From: Emticicia oligotrophica DSM 17448
Lineage (GTDB): Bacteria > Bacteroidota > Bacteroidia > Cytophagales > Spirosomataceae
Direction of reading: 5' to 3'
NCBI RefSeq assembly: GCF_000263195.1
Contig: NC_018748.1
Location: 3,410,001 to 3,474,000 of the forward strand
Length of the DNA: 64,000 bases
The position numbers and the translations under genes were made by a program. The notes under the pieces are model-generated. The model was given only the letters and a program-made list of their open reading frames with translations. It did no database searches and had not been told where the DNA came from. Each line of letters begins with the position of its first letter. The first letter of the stretch is position 1. Below are positions 3,982 through 23,402 of this stretch, in pieces.

Positions 3982-4009
3982 GTAGAGACGTTGCATGCAA
4001 CGTCTCTAC
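3982..4009. repeat. REP-like palindrome, copy 1
   Basis: A perfect 28-bp palindrome with half-site GTAGAGACGTTGCA. It sits between the RAYT gene and the AtuA gene. The same family occurs at 4292, 4649, 6008, 8655 and 9759. Confidence 0.95.
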
Positions 4010-4028
4010 GTTGTTGGTTTTGAATTCA

Positions 4029-4619
4029 TCATTCATTTTTATAAAATTTGTCATACTCCCAATTCAATGGGTTATTTTCAATGTAGTCATTTATTCGTTG
4101 ATATTCTACGTCATTTCTTATAATATGGTCGTGAAATCTTGTTTGCCAAGCGAATATAAGACTATTTTCATCAGTTAATTTTAGGCGATTACAATGTTTA
4201 GTTACTGCGGATTTGTATGAGCGAATGATTGTTGAAACCGAATTTGATTTTGGCGAAATAGCAGACATGAATTGATTTTTCTGTGTCGCTGGTAGAGACG
4301 TTGCATGCAACGTCTCTACGGTTTCAATGATTTTATTTTCAGGTTTATCTAAAACCAAAATCCCATGTATATGATTGGGCATTACCACAAATGTACCTAA
4401 TTCAATATTTTCGGTGTGATTCTTTATTTCATGCCAAAATACATCGGCCAATATGCCAATTTTTGATAATCGCATCTGACCATTTTCTATTTCTCCGAAG
4501 AAATGATCCATATTTTTTGTGCAAATGGTGATAAAATATGCTCCATTCCATCCATAATCCCACCACGAGGCACGTGCTGAGGCAATACGGTATTTATTTT
4601 TAAATTTGTCGGTGGACAT
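4029..4619 (-). CDS. REP-associated tyrosine transposase (RAYT, Y1_Tnp family)
   Basis: 197 aa when started at ATG 4619 (MSTDKFKNKYRIASARAS). The frame is open 20 codons further up, but that extension is translated REP sequence (VETLHATSLP), so the internal start is better. It is an HUH-type single-strand nuclease: VVMPNHIHGIL carries the HUH pair, and the front region RASWWDYGWNGAYFITICT is typical of RAYTs. RAYTs bind and nick REP palindromes. Palindromes flank this gene on both sides, and a third copy lies in frame inside it (KIIETVETLHATSLPATQ). The in-frame copy may disturb or merely decorate the protein. Confidence 0.9.
   Translation of the reverse strand: MSTDKFKNKYRIASARASWWDYGWNGAYFITICTKNMDHFFGEIENGQMRLSKIGILADVFWHEIKNHTENIELGTFVVMPNHIHGILVLDKPENKIIETVETLHATSLPATQKNQFMSAISPKSNSVSTIIRSYKSAVTKHCNRLKLTDENSLIFAWQTRFHDHIIRNDVEYQRINDYIENNPLNWEYDKFYKNE
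4292..4319. repeat. REP-like palindrome, copy 2, inside the RAYT gene
   Basis: An exact copy of the 28-bp palindrome at 3982, located within the RAYT coding sequence and read as VETLHATSLP. The frame is maintained across it. Confidence 0.95.
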
Positions 4620-4638
4620 TTTTTTTGTTGTTGTCTGG

Positions 4639-4686
4639 ATTTTAATTGGTAGAGACGTTGCATGCAACGTCTCTACCAATTAAAAT
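4639..4686. repeat. REP-like palindrome, copy 3 (48-bp perfect palindrome)
   Basis: The 28-bp core is at 4649-4676. The symmetry extends a further 10 bp on each side (ATTTTAATTG outside the core), giving a perfect 48-bp palindrome. It lies immediately upstream of the RAYT start and just past the end of the transporter gene. It may also act as a terminator. Confidence 0.95.
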
Positions 4687-4695
4687 TAATTTTTT

Positions 4696-5991
4696 TTATA
4701 TATGTAACGACCCTGTTAATATCGCAATAACTGTCATTACAATCGTTGTTCCCCAAGCCCATTTGAAGGTATGGCGTTGATGTTCTCCCAAATCAACTTC
4801 CGATAAACCTACCAATAAAAAAGTTGAAGCTGTTAACGGACTAATCGGAAAACCAACGGTCATTTGTCCAAGCAAGGCAGCTCGACCGATTTCGAGTTGG
4901 TCGATGCCAAATTGTGTGGCAGTTTGACTCAGAATTGGCACAACCCCAAAATAATAAGCATCAGGTGTGAACAAAATACTAGCAGGTAAACTCGTAAAGG
5001 CTGTAATGGCAGGCAACCAATTGGCATGAGTTTGAGGGATTAAGGCAACCAAGGCGTTAGCCATTTCTTCAATCATTTTAGAACCAGTCAGTATTCCAGA
5101 AAAAATCCCCGCAGCAAAAATCATACTCGAAACCATGAAAATATTCGTTCCGTGCCCTTTCATTACTTTTTGCTGGTCGGCGAGTTTTGGATAATTTACC
5201 AATAAAGCAACCATACTGGCTACTACAAATAAAACAGATGCAGGAATCCAACCTTTCATCAAAGCAACGATTAGAGAAATAGTAAGAATTGAATTGAAAA
5301 TAATCAGTTTGGGTCTTCTAAGTCCTTGTTGTTCTTCGCTTAGATTTTCTTGATGATTATACTGAAAATCAATGATTCCGAGGCGATTCCGTTCTTTTTT
5401 ACCAAAAATATAAGCCACAAATAATACCCATAAAATTCCCCCAATAATAGCTGGTACATTTGGATTGAAAATATGAACAGCATCAGATTTCATGACCGAA
5501 ATAGCTCTTGCTGAAGTGCCCGACCAAGGAACAAGGTGCATAGGACCAACGCTTAATGCAACGATACTAGAAAGTATTAAACGATTGATTTTTAGTTGTT
5601 TATAAATGGGTAGAAACGCAGAGAGAACAATCATAAAAGTAGCGGTTCCATCGCCATCTAAATGCACAATCATGGTTAGAATAGCTGTGCCAAGAATTAC
5701 CTTTAACGGGTCTCCTTTGACAGATTTTATGATTGCTGCTATCACAGGATCGAAAAGTCCTGCATCAAGCATAGTGGCAAAGTAAAGCACCGCAAACATT
5801 AATAGAATGCCCGTTGGAGCAACTTGTTTGATTCCAGTAATGGCAAATTCTCCTAATTCCTTTGGCGAAAAACCTGCGATTAAACCAAAGATTATAGGTG
5901 TAATGACCAAAGCAGTCATGACTGACATTTTCTTGGTCATTATCAAAACCAAGAAAATGAATATTGTAGCGAAACCGAAAATTGATAACAT
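4696..5991 (-). CDS. CitMHS-family carboxylate transporter
   Basis: 431 aa, strongly hydrophobic, with about 12 predicted membrane segments. HLDGDGTATFMIVLSAFLP and PWSGTSARAISVMKSD are hallmarks of the citrate-Mg/H+ symporter family (CitM/CitH of Bacillus; TC 2.A.11). It is likely an inner-membrane proton- or metal-coupled importer of citrate or a related di- or tricarboxylate. The gene lies between the RAYT and sulfatase genes, in line with the AtuA pair. It could import an acid released by the nearby esterases; that link is inference. Confidence 0.85.
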   Translation of the reverse strand: MLSIFGFATIFIFLVLIMTKKMSVMTALVITPIIFGLIAGFSPKELGEFAITGIKQVAPTGILLMFAVLYFATMLDAGLFDPVIAAIIKSVKGDPLKVILGTAILTMIVHLDGDGTATFMIVLSAFLPIYKQLKINRLILSSIVALSVGPMHLVPWSGTSARAISVMKSDAVHIFNPNVPAIIGGILWVLFVAYIFGKKERNRLGIIDFQYNHQENLSEEQQGLRRPKLIIFNSILTISLIVALMKGWIPASVLFVVASMVALLVNYPKLADQQKVMKGHGTNIFMVSSMIFAAGIFSGILTGSKMIEEMANALVALIPQTHANWLPAITAFTSLPASILFTPDAYYFGVVPILSQTATQFGIDQLEIGRAALLGQMTVGFPISPLTASTFLLVGLSEVDLGEHQRHTFKWAWGTTIVMTVIAILTGSLHI

Positions 5992-6007
5992 TATTTATTT
6001 TTATTTG

Positions 6008-6035
6008 GTAGAGACAAGGCATACCTTGTCTCTAC
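6008..6035. repeat. REP-like palindrome, copy 4 (variant)
   Basis: 28-bp near-perfect palindrome with half-site GTAGAGACAAGGCA and one mismatched pair. It keeps the GTAGAGAC ends of copies 1-3 but has a different centre. It sits between the sulfatase and transporter genes. Confidence 0.9.
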
Positions 6036-6051
6036 GGGATTTTAATTTATA

Positions 6052-7692
6052 TCATCTAAAAATCTTCCCCTGTTTCACCAGTTGGTCATACTTCTCAATA
6101 TACATTTTATCCAAAGTTTCGGAGTCTTTGTATTTTACACGGAGAGCGGCTAATTTTTTATGCAATTCTTCTTTTACTTTGGCATATTTAGGGTCATTAT
6201 AAACATTTTTCATTTCATTTTTATCGTTTACACGGTCATATAATTCCCATTCATCGACATCGTAATAGAAATGCACTAATTTGTATTTTTCCGTGACAAT
6301 CCCATAATGACGTTTCACCATGTGAACGCTCGGGTATTCGTAATAATGGTAATAGGCAGCATCACGGAAATTTTTGCCTTGACCTTTGAAAATCGGAATC
6401 AAACTTTCTCCTTGCATATCTGATGGAGGCGTAATGCCCGCAGCTTCAAGGAAAGTTTGTGCAAAATCTAGGTTTTGAACCATTTGCGTATTTTTAGAAC
6501 CTGCTTTTATCACATTTGGCCAACGTACCAAAAGCGGAGTTTTGAAGGATTCATCAAAGATAAATCGCTTATCAAACCAACCGTGTTCGCCCAAATAAAA
6601 GCCTTGGTCAGAAGTATAAACCACAATAGTGTTTTCTTCTAAATTGTTCTTTTTTAAGAAATCTAGAACTTTACCAACCCCTTCATCAACTGCCGCAATG
6701 CTTCCTAGATAATCCTGCATATATCGCTGATAACGCCATTTCATTTTATCCCTTTCAGTCATGCTTGGGTAACGTTTAATGAACTCCTCGTTCATTTTAC
6801 CGTAGTATTCATCCCAAACTTTGCGTTGCTCGGCGTTCATTCTGCCCACGGTATAATTATAATTTCGTTTATCATATGAGTGAGATTCCTTGATACCGAG
6901 TTTATCCATGTTTTCAGGGAAAATTTTTGAATCTCCCGCCCAGTTCATGTGCGTTAGTAGGTTCATTTCTGCTTCTTTCGATGCTCTTCCACGGCCTTCA
7001 TAATTATCAAAAAGGGTAGTTGGCTCAGGGAATGTTTTCTTCAAATATTCTTTAAAATGGCGTTCGGCTGGTAGCCATTCACGGTGAGGTGCCTTATGTA
7101 GATACGCCAAAAAGAAAGGCTTTTCTTCATCACGTTCGTTTTTCAACCAGTTTAATGTAATATCTGTAATGAGGTCGGTTACATAGCCAGTTAATTTCTT
7201 TTTCCCTTCTTTTTTTGTAATGAAATCAGGGTTGTAATAATCGCCTTGGTCTGGTAAAATCTGAAATTCATCAAATCCTTTGGGGTTATTTCCAAAATGT
7301 AGTTTCCCAAACATAGCTGTCTGATAACCATTCTTTTGTAGAATCTGTGGGAAAGTAATATTGGTCGTATCAAATGGGAAATAGTTGTCAATTTTTCCAT
7401 TCAAATGGCTATGTTTTCCAGTTAAGATAACCGCTCTTGATGGGGCACAAATAGAGTTTGTTACACAAGCATTTGTGAATAACATACCTTCTTTGGCAAT
7501 TCTATCAATATTTGGCGTTTGGGTAAGACGTTTATCATAGGCCGAAATTGCTTGATAAGCATGGTCGTCGGACATGATGAAAACGATGTTGGGACGCCTC
7601 ATCGCATGACTTTTTGTTTTCTTGGGTTTGAATGCAAAAAAACTTAAAGAGACAATTCCAATGGCAAGGAGAGAATAGAAGATTTTTTTCAT
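6052..7692 (-). CDS. Exported sulfatase
   Basis: About 546 aa from ATG 7692 (MKKIFYSLLAIGIVSLSFF); the 14 codons further upstream would precede the signal peptide. RPNIVFIMSDDHAYQ holds the metal-binding Asp pair. CAPSRAVILTGKHSH holds the CxPxR motif whose Cys is converted to formylglycine, so a maturase is needed; none is in the window. YTSDQGFYLGEHGW holds the second metal and active-site group. It is a type I sulfatase, probably periplasmic, removing sulfate esters from a glycan or small molecule. It fits a locus that degrades a decorated polymer or secondary metabolite. Confidence 0.92.
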   Translation of the reverse strand: MKKIFYSLLAIGIVSLSFFAFKPKKTKSHAMRRPNIVFIMSDDHAYQAISAYDKRLTQTPNIDRIAKEGMLFTNACVTNSICAPSRAVILTGKHSHLNGKIDNYFPFDTTNITFPQILQKNGYQTAMFGKLHFGNNPKGFDEFQILPDQGDYYNPDFITKKEGKKKLTGYVTDLITDITLNWLKNERDEEKPFFLAYLHKAPHREWLPAERHFKEYLKKTFPEPTTLFDNYEGRGRASKEAEMNLLTHMNWAGDSKIFPENMDKLGIKESHSYDKRNYNYTVGRMNAEQRKVWDEYYGKMNEEFIKRYPSMTERDKMKWRYQRYMQDYLGSIAAVDEGVGKVLDFLKKNNLEENTIVVYTSDQGFYLGEHGWFDKRFIFDESFKTPLLVRWPNVIKAGSKNTQMVQNLDFAQTFLEAAGITPPSDMQGESLIPIFKGQGKNFRDAAYYHYYEYPSVHMVKRHYGIVTEKYKLVHFYYDVDEWELYDRVNDKNEMKNVYNDPKYAKVKEELHKKLAALRVKYKDSETLDKMYIEKYDQLVKQGKIFR

Positions 7693-7716
7693 GTTGGTTG
7701 AGTTGAAATAGTTTGA

Positions 7717-7752
7717 TTTGCCACGAATATACAAAATTCCATTGGTGGCAAA
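7717..7752. promoter_or_regulatory. Inverted repeat between esterase and sulfatase genes
   Basis: TTTGCCAC (7717-7724) and GTGGCAAA (7745-7752) are exact complements spaced by 20 bases, upstream of the sulfatase and just past the esterase stop. It could be an operator or a transcript-end hairpin. Confidence 0.4.
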
Positions 7753-7763
7753 AAAGGTGTTAT

Positions 7764-8630
7764 TTATTCTACAACTACTCCATTCTTTTTCAAAACATTA
7801 TGGAAGAAAAGAACGTGGTAAGGCAATGAGTTTTCCCAATAAGGCCATGTGTGTGCACCCGGACGCTCTGTGTAATCATGTGCCACGCCTGCATAGAGTA
7901 AACGGCTATGGAGTTCACGATTAGCATCAATTAAAAAATCATCTACGCCGCAATCAATCGTGATGGGCATGCCGTTTTTCTTGATAGCATCAACCATATT
8001 TACAATAGAGTTTTTTACAAAAACTTCTTGAGAAACATCCGAAGTACCCAATAATTTCTCGAAGCGTTCTTTCAATGATTTTGTAAAATCAGCATTTACC
8101 TTAAACTTCGTGTAGTTCATATCCATTGCACCACTCATTGTCCCTGCTGCACCAAACAATTCTGGGTGACGAGTAGAAAGATACATGGCTCCGTGTCCAC
8201 CCATCGAGAGACCCGTAATTACTCTACCTTTATTGCTTTTTACAGTACGATAAGTAGCATCAATTTTTTGAATAACTTCTTTTGTAATATAAGTTTCGAA
8301 TTTATTATTTGGGTCAGATGGGCTATCCAAATACCAACCGAAAGTTTCACCTTCTGGCATCACAATGATTAAATTGTATTTATCAGCAAGGTTTCGTACT
8401 AAGTTTTTGTCAGGCGTCGAAGTTAGCCAATCACGAAAATGCCCACCACCACCATGTAGCAGATATAAAACAGGATAAGATGCTTGGTTTTTGGAATAAG
8501 AAGCAGGTAAAACAACCGCTGCTTTGTAGGCTTTGTTCATCACGGCACTCGGCACATCCAAGGTATCAACTGTTGATGCTTTGGCTGAAAAGGTAAAGAG
8601 AATTAGGGTGAAATAGAGAAATTTTTGCAT
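7764..8630 (-). CDS. Secreted PF00756-type esterase
   Basis: 288 aa with a signal peptide ending near TFSAKA. LLHGGGGHFRDWL, the nucleophile elbow GLSMGGHGAM (Ser about 144) and GAHTWPYWEN with the catalytic His near the C-terminus identify the esterase D / feruloyl-esterase-like group. Members hydrolyse acyl or hydroxycinnamoyl esters on sugars. It is probably co-expressed with the sulfatase and the next esterase, with a REP palindrome in the gap between the two esterases. Confidence 0.88.
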   Translation of the reverse strand: MQKFLYFTLILFTFSAKASTVDTLDVPSAVMNKAYKAAVVLPASYSKNQASYPVLYLLHGGGGHFRDWLTSTPDKNLVRNLADKYNLIIVMPEGETFGWYLDSPSDPNNKFETYITKEVIQKIDATYRTVKSNKGRVITGLSMGGHGAMYLSTRHPELFGAAGTMSGAMDMNYTKFKVNADFTKSLKERFEKLLGTSDVSQEVFVKNSIVNMVDAIKKNGMPITIDCGVDDFLIDANRELHSRLLYAGVAHDYTERPGAHTWPYWENSLPYHVLFFHNVLKKNGVVVE

Positions 8631-8654
8631 AGTTTTTTAGAGGTTTAATTTTCC

Positions 8655-8682
8655 GTAGAGACGTTACATGTAACGTCTCTAC
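8655..8682. repeat. REP-like palindrome, copy 5
   Basis: Perfect 28-bp palindrome with half-site GTAGAGACGTTACA, one base different per half from copy 1. It is intergenic between two esterase genes. Confidence 0.95.
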
Positions 8683-8702
8683 CATGGTAATTTATTTTAA
8701 TA

Positions 8703-9725
8703 TCAAAATTTCAAATAGTCATTAAAAAATGGCAATAAATCATTCAAAACACGGCCATCCATTGTCCAGATTTTGTTGCCGTGGTCGCCGATGTATTCCT
8801 CTGCAAAATGATTAATTCCTAGGTTTTCTAAACGCTGGCTCAACATACCGATTTGCACTGGAAAGCGTGGTGAATCATTTCGTCCCCAATCTAATTTTAT
8901 GGCTGTCATTTTACGTAAATTATCCGCATATTTATCGACCATGTAAACAGGCATATTGGCCTCCCATTTTTCTAAAATAGGCTGATTTACAATCATTTTA
9001 TCCCCTTCATAACTAAATGGAAAATCACAGAAGAAAGGAGGTTTGTTTGGGTTTGGTGACCATGCACGAGCTACTGCTACCAATACTTTTGGATAATAAG
9101 TCTTCTTTAGTTCTTCAGGAGTTTTGATATTTTGTACTTCTTTGAAAGAATTGCTATTGGGTCCAAATTCTTTTACCATTGCTAATAAACCTGGGCTCAA
9201 GGCATAAATGCTGCTGAAAACCTCGGGGTGAAGCATCCCGATTTTGAAAGCACCATATCCTCCCATCGAATGCCCAGCAATGCCTCGACTTTCACGAGTG
9301 GCGAGGGTTCGGTAGTTTTTATCCATGTATTCTACCAATTCTTTACTCTCGAACTCATCCCAATTGCCTGTTAATGAGGAGTTTGAGTAAAAACTTCCTT
9401 CAAAAATTGTGTATTGGTCGGCTTGAACAAAAATGAAAGGCTTAATTTTTTGGCGTGCAATGCCTTCATCTAAAATCTTCTGCATTTGCGGAAAAATATT
9501 ATCTTTTCCCATGAAACCGTGTAGATAATAAATAACTGGATAACGCTGAGTTGAAGCATCATAATTTGGTGGAAGGTACACCGAAACTTTACGATTAGGG
9601 TCTTCACCACCTGTATTTTGTAGAGCTTTTGAATTGAGCGTAAAACTTACCACTTTTCCAGTTTGGGCAGTTGCCCATGTGACGAGTGATAAATTAAGAA
9701 CAAAAAAAAGTATTTTTGTTTTCAT
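8703..9725 (-). CDS. Secreted PF00756-type esterase
   Basis: 340 aa with a signal peptide (MKTKILFFVLNLSLVTWATA-Q). Motifs are YYLHGFMGKDN, the nucleophile elbow AGHSMGGYGAFKIG, and a C-terminal YIGDHGNKIW with the likely catalytic His. It is longer than the esterase at 7764 and only distantly related, so the two probably differ in substrate. Expected to act in the periplasm on acylated sugars or similar esters. Confidence 0.88.
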   Translation of the reverse strand: MKTKILFFVLNLSLVTWATAQTGKVVSFTLNSKALQNTGGEDPNRKVSVYLPPNYDASTQRYPVIYYLHGFMGKDNIFPQMQKILDEGIARQKIKPFIFVQADQYTIFEGSFYSNSSLTGNWDEFESKELVEYMDKNYRTLATRESRGIAGHSMGGYGAFKIGMLHPEVFSSIYALSPGLLAMVKEFGPNSNSFKEVQNIKTPEELKKTYYPKVLVAVARAWSPNPNKPPFFCDFPFSYEGDKMIVNQPILEKWEANMPVYMVDKYADNLRKMTAIKLDWGRNDSPRFPVQIGMLSQRLENLGINHFAEEYIGDHGNKIWTMDGRVLNDLLPFFNDYLKF

Positions 9726-9758
9726 AGTGAATGTTGGTTTAAAATTTAATTTTTAGGT

Positions 9759-9786
9759 GTAGAGACAAGACATGCCTTGTCTCTAC
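9759..9786. repeat. REP-like palindrome, copy 6 (variant)
   Basis: Half-site GTAGAGACAAGACA with one mismatched pair; same variant type as copy 4. It lies between the TonB-dependent receptor gene and the esterase gene. Confidence 0.9.
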
Positions 9787-23370: not shown

Positions 23371-23402
23371 AACAGAATTTCATCTTAAGATGAAATTCTG
23401 TT
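23371..23402 (+). terminator. Palindromic terminator
   Basis: A perfect 32-bp palindrome with arm AACAGAATTTCATCTT, ending in a short T run on the plus strand, lies after the 22015 gene and before the convergent copper genes. It could serve both strands. Confidence 0.7.

Follow-up and report, generated by a model that had tools for sequence, protein, structure and literature searches.

The RAYT proteins (TnpAREP) of subclass 2.4, which corresponds to RAYT group 4, occur in Bacteroidetes and Cyanobacteria together with double-foot REP palindromes (Quentin 2018, PMC6006769). The text of that paper available to us gives as a unique trait of the subclass that REPs inserted in frame predominate between the HuH motif and the Tyr motif, lists an insertion of 8 residues where alphaB ends as another feature, and proposes that the in-gene insertions have little impact on activity. 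An in-frame REP in a RAYT gene is a family feature published in 2018 and is therefore not new. A link between the REP core, an adjoining protein module, and the swapping of both as a cassette is not drawn in the text that was available.

The biochemical work on RAYTs and REPs considered here deals only with groups 2 and 3 (PMC8266576). In E. coli TnpAREP (PDB entry 4er8), residue K82 of helix alpha3 touches the REP stem in its middle part (PMC8266576). The RAYT described here resembles this protein in its fold, in the GTAG foot of its REPs, and in having a counterpart of the DNA-binding helix alpha3 ahead of the WQ motif, whereas the E. coli enzyme belongs to group 2, has a bulged single-foot hairpin as its REP, and has a short linker and no in-gene REP. 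RAYTs and REPs also change together in Stenotrophomonas (Nunvar 2010, PMC2817692), but there whole-protein trees match and the REPs are flanking only, whereas in the family described here a short exchangeable module changes with the core while the rest of the protein stays. Palindromes translated in frame are likewise found in the Rickettsia RPE and in the GTAG REPs known inside other genes (PMC3733652); unlike the REPs considered here, these are scattered across unrelated genes and have no fixed site in a cognate transposase. The correspondence between a protein module and the REP core, and the joint swapping of the two, are apparently new.

A subclass 2.4 REPtron in Emticicia oligotrophica

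We analyzed a 64-kb stretch of DNA (the window; 35.8% GC) from the 5.22-Mb genome of Emticicia oligotrophica DSM 17448 (GCF_000263195.1, NC_018748.1, positions 3,410,001-3,474,000, forward strand). Six REPs were found in the window (Table 1), with no further copies elsewhere in the 64 kb. Copies 1 to 3 are identical 28-bp palindromes located 3' of, within, and 5' of a RAYT gene, and each of the three intergenic gaps beyond this gene contains one of copies 4 to 6. All six palindromes, together with their coordinates and core types, had been proposed in an earlier note on this DNA and were borne out. The note had also described the cluster as centred on the RAYT, which is not the case, as copies 1 to 3 flank or enter the gene and copies 4 to 6 lie in the gaps that follow it. 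Chance clustering of six REPs in 5.8 kb can be ruled out (P ~1e-12, Poisson model). The window further contains a 32-bp perfect palindrome that is unrelated to the REPs (positions 23371-23402, AACAGAATTTCATCTTAAGATGAAATTCTGTT).

TABLE 1 Features of the RAYT locus, numbered by position in the 64-kb window
Feature	Position	Strand	Sequence or class	Remarks
RAYT / TnpAREP	4029..4619	minus	Y1 HuH single-strand nuclease-like, subclass 2.4 type	196 aa; ATG 4617-4619, stop 4029-4031
HuH motif	4365..4376	minus	NHIH	Residue 82; motif inspection
Putative specificity module	4230..4283	minus	QKNQFMSAISPKSNSVST, ISPK class	Caps the N terminus of alpha3, ~9 bp past the in-gene REP
Helix alpha3	4185..4238	minus		Model and 4er8 alignment; counterpart of the K82-bearing DNA-binding helix of E. 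coli TnpAREP
Tyr motif	4068..4085	minus	YIENNP	Catalytic Tyr179; motif inspection
REP copy 1	3982..4009		GTTG-type, GTAGAGACGTTGCATGCAACGTCTCTAC	Directly 3' of the RAYT
REP copy 2 (in-gene)	4292..4319		Double-foot, GTTG-type core, GTAGAGACGTTGCATGCAACGTCTCTAC	Inside the RAYT, in the (disordered) HuH-alpha3 linker; encodes VETLHATSL
REP copy 3	4649..4676		GTTG-type, GTAGAGACGTTGCATGCAACGTCTCTAC	~30 bp upstream of the RAYT ATG
48-bp perfect palindrome	4639..4686			REP copy 3 at its centre plus 10 further pairs from local sequence
REP copy 4	6008..6035		AAGG-type, AAGGCATACCTT core	One mismatch; intergenic
REP copy 5	8655..8682		GTTA-type, GTTACATGTAAC	Perfect; intergenic
REP copy 6	9759..9786		AAGA-type, AAGACATGCCTT	One mismatch; intergenic

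The protein shares with the published subclass a Y1 HuH domain with NH[IFV]H, WQ (here at residue 158), and YIxNNP motifs, a long variable insertion that runs from beta3, after the HuH motif, to helix alphaC, and double-foot REPs (GTAG ... CTAC) both around the gene and in frame within it. REPs of the same type are dispersed through the genome (28 copies, 13 of them of the GTT type). From these motifs, the insertion, and the REPs, we assign the locus to the REPtrons of TnpAREP subclass 2.4, with a RAYT that is flanked by and contains its predicted cognate double-foot REP. The sequence matches Y1_Tnp of Pfam (1.2e-5) and REP_Tyr_transpos of NCBIfam (E of 5.4e-18; 65.3 bits, under the 80-bit cut-off of that family). 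The HuH and Tyr motifs are ~96 residues apart, against a median of 88 in subclass 2.4, and the chain ends 12 residues past YIENNP, so that there is no C-terminal extension domain.

An AlphaFold model made from 57 homologues (mean pLDDT of 85.5) has as its best PDB fold match in Foldseek the E. coli TnpAREP-REP complex, 4er8 (TM of 0.50/0.59). The REP-encoded peptide (residues 101 to 109) is in a model block with a pLDDT of ~54, and it is followed by a short helix (113 to 121), a loop, and alpha3 (128 to 145). According to sequence and model, the in-gene REP sits in a disordered linker that leads from the HuH motif to helix alpha3. The copy is read in frame, as the earlier note had it, giving VETLHATSL within an open reading frame in which the HuH, WQ, and Tyr motifs are all intact.

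In-gene REPs among RAYT homologues

We then looked into the occurrence of in-gene REPs in related genes, sampled as full-length homologues in 291 genomes belonging to the order and at 80 loci in named genomes, with the REP peptide removed from the first query (~190 relatives in the overall comparison). A search of the plasmid collection for relatives yielded only four. At least one hairpin was present in the linker of 83/112 full-length homologues. Linkers of these 112 genes contain 94 hairpins in 19.1 kb (4.9/kb), compared with 6 in 28.7 kb (0.21/kb) and 2 in 21.2 kb (0.09/kb) in the remaining gene parts. Among 73 in-gene REPs that could be classified by reading frame, 60 use the VET frame and 13 the next one, while the TAG-containing frame was not found. 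The cores turn over even among close relatives, since the gene in the window has GTTGCATGCAAC and neighbours at ~81% core identity have AAGGCATGCCTT.

The in-frame landing had been called striking in the earlier note. It is not a striking single event: a REP is found at the same place in most homologues, a state published in 2018 as the predominant one, and a one-off lucky insertion is ruled out by the 83 genes with a hairpin there. The note had also suggested aligning homologues to see whether others lack the inner segment, and its reading was to fall if all of them had it. The outcome is intermediate: most of them do have a REP at this place, but the cores differ and two reading frames are in use. 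An ancestral fixed protein segment is ruled out by these differences of core and frame between close relatives. The site of the REP is thus normal for the family, and its sequence turns over.

The in-gene core was identical to a flanking core in 18 of the 20 loci with a flanking REP (mean of 3.7 and maximum of 9 in 1000 shuffles). At 4-fold sites, gene pairs with <75% protein identity are 73 to 85% identical in the REP and 32 to 33% in the core, and the closest pairs 85% and 49%; the comparison is limited to genes with palindromic copies, yet a palindrome is in any case present in 51/55 linkers that encode a REP-like peptide. As 4-fold sites are conserved in the REP compared with the core, the constraint or homogenization acts on the DNA. 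In six genomes, of which some assemblies are incomplete, the in-gene REP is the sole same-core copy found, even at 2 mismatches (G251, G070, G293, G299, G305, and G308), and its maintenance in these genomes cannot come from the copying of REPs now present. Overall, sequence comparison shows the in-gene REP to be a recurrent, cognate feature conserved at the DNA level.

Further observations were made on these linkers. In 16/82 in-gene REPs, the arms continue for at least 3 extra pairs past the GTAG feet with local sequence, where ~1.7 would be expected. Such extended palindromes are found around REP copy 3 in the window and in the linkers of L271, L209, L060, and L151, and they hint at fold-back synthesis or at insertion into palindromes. 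REP peptides are multiplied in tandem and in frame in the linkers of L137, L139, L090, L278, and L288 (for example, as NIASLQ, ASNQDI, or VETGR repeats). Several relatives seem to be cut near the REP site, such as those in G010:C64, G384, and G641.

A protein module next to the REP that covaries with its core

We then analyzed the protein sequence adjoining the REP. Alignment and model indicate a module of ~18 residues that comes after the in-gene REP and before alpha3 and caps this helix N-terminally; the E. coli counterpart of the helix contacts the REP stem. Four classes of module pair with different cores: ISPKSxSxST with the GTTG type, RFQNxGKNTxSS with AAGG/AGGG/AACG, the FGPQ class (NKFGPQSKNLAS) with GCAA/GCGATG, and KNPMxxNISR with GCGATT. 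The matching pair was found in 68/68 training genes within the four classes, module and REP classes having been defined after inspection of this set, and the rules were then fixed before a hold-out of 92 new genes. In the hold-out, 22 genes were on matching pairs and 0 on crossed pairs, and ten more genes of these module classes (six ISPK and four FGPQ) had REPs outside the class rules. Several of the ten turned out, when looked at, to be failures of the rules. The ISPK exceptions make up 6/12 of the hold-out ISPK calls: L293 has a mis-called module, which is WQPG-like, L224 and L206 are GTTG-like by inspection, and three genes have a GAGACC core.

Looser rules, drawn up post hoc, gave 40/40 for RFQN and suggested FGKP, FQKI, IKSLSE, GLPE, SPSTIG, and WQPG as further classes. 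Poor fits to the module rule are L231, L258, L072, L081 (with respect to a distant flank), and L082 (with respect to its genome). Among eight clear cases of a RAYT gene with no internal REP, the flanking REP suits the module in seven (L128, L020, L032, L222, L260, L264, and a Spirosoma plasmid RAYT, with L258 as the misfit), and at the genome level the fit extends to G124, G025, G008, and G066, but not to L082. The module predicts the REP core, with near-perfect covariation.

We also considered shared descent and adjacency. On a tree from which the linker and alpha3 had been excluded, 30 changes are counted for the module and 30 for the REP class, and the two are concordant in 99/101 genes, although the tree is weakly resolved, with only 1 to 4 independent contrasts on strongly supported branches and 1 to 2 per class, too few for significance. 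We therefore counted disjoint close pairs (65 to 91% core identity) instead: where the modules are different, the REP class differs in 19/19 of them, and in 226/226 when all such close pairs are taken, whereas it differs in only 18/113 same-module pairs with <50% identity. L081 and L054 illustrate this pattern, as their DNA is 93% identical in the N core, 90% in the C core, and 60% in the linker, with module and REP both different. The match between module and core is kept in both reading frames in use, which indicates that separate insertions chose the same core. These comparisons show a joint replacement of REP and module as a cassette, with the catalytic core retained.

Proposed mechanism and alternatives

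We propose that the locus is a REPtron in which a swappable cassette, made of the REP and a reader module, sets the specificity of the RAYT. We give this reading a probability of about 0.7, with the binding step deduced from the covariation. The ~18-residue module on alpha3 would determine which REP core the enzyme recognizes, presumably by contact with that core, and REP and adjoining module would be replaced together while the catalytic core stays. A target located beside its reader would keep the pair matched upon recombination or gene transfer, a transferred RAYT would bring its own seed REP, and this togetherness may explain the retention of the REP within the coding sequence. A broader form of the proposal makes the exchangeable cassette a property of subclass 2.4, with an 18-residue module that would read the core by a simple code of ~ten classes, an in-frame copy of the target beside it, the two being inherited, recombined, and transferred as one, and exchange possibly promoted by the RAYT's own cut at this copy; we rate its chances at a little below even.

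The view taken in the literature is that REPs spread in the neighbourhood of the RAYT, and that those landing in an open frame of the flexible linker survive as copies without a role. This would agree with a linker that is disordered and hypervariable, with the use of both open frames and never of the one with the TAG stop, with the occurrence of REPs in frame elsewhere (for example, in a histidine kinase of the same genome), and with the little impact on activity proposed in the part of PMC6006769 cited above. It is less easily reconciled with a REP whose palindrome is preserved in a gene with otherwise saturated 4-fold sites, or with the six genomes in which the in-gene copy is the only one with its core, and neutral insertion alone does not predict the match with the module. 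We consider neutral tolerance a credible but doubtful account. The conservation at the DNA level and the strong hairpins (~-18 kcal/mol for the in-gene REP as RNA) could also point to autoregulation, in which the RAYT would limit its expression by binding to or cutting the gene or mRNA that encodes it, via the in-gene REP and the REP ~30 bp upstream of the ATG, and L048 and L078 too have a flanking REP near the start codon. However, about a quarter of the homologues are without an in-gene REP, and autoregulation does not require that core and module match under swapping; we find it unlikely.

The covariation itself could arise if module and REP were merely adjacent DNA inherited as one block, with no reading of the REP by the module. 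In many cases the distance separating the two is just some tens of base pairs, and swaps move both. Against such hitch-hiking, one module class is found with one core in two frames, as expected from separate insertions, agreement with the module is seen for most flanking REPs and also for most RAYTs that have no REP in the gene, and the module caps the DNA-binding helix; we regard it as quite improbable. With a short module that predicts the core in ~100 genes, the way in which group 4 RAYTs choose their REPs becomes directly testable, and each REP family of a Bacteroidota genome gains a predicted enzyme. The family would also provide a case from nature in which a DNA-binding specificity is exchanged along with a copy of the sequence it recognizes.

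REP families and a second RAYT in the genome

Genome-wide, we found 28 REPs with intact GTAGAGAC/GTCTCTAC ends, and 0 with the reversed control pattern. They divide into 13 of the GTT type, 12 of the AAGG/AGGG type, and 3 others, in agreement with the two main REP sub-families that the earlier note had suspected to be handled by one or two RAYTs. There are indeed two such genes in the genome, the RAYT of the window, with its own REPs and one of them in-gene, and a second, truncated RAYT (L002). The latter has an AGGG-type REP at the equivalent site. It is located at L002:1396-1803 (G000:C5 ~1661520-1661930) and ends ~ten codons past this REP, without module, alpha3, or Tyr, the C-terminal half having been lost; a LeuC-like gene begins soon after.

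With its ISPK module, the RAYT of the window should act on the GTT-type REPs of the genome, and the AAGG/AGGG-type REPs fit the second, truncated RAYT. Perfect copies account for 11/13 of the GTT type versus 2/12 of the AAGG/AGGG type (Fisher p of 0.0012), as expected if only the reader of the GTT type is intact. This fits the idea that the AAGG/AGGG type is a decaying REP family deprived of its enzyme, a single genome being no proof of it.

An AGGG-type REP of the same genome is read in frame, as VETGHALSL, in a histidine-kinase-like gene with HisKA, HATPase_c, and TPR domains (L191:2001-2028; G000:C5:3536094-3536121). The genome of a relative (G612) contains 60 double-foot palindromes with several core types (GAAAAATTTTTC, GCGATGCATCGC, and GCGATTAATCGC).
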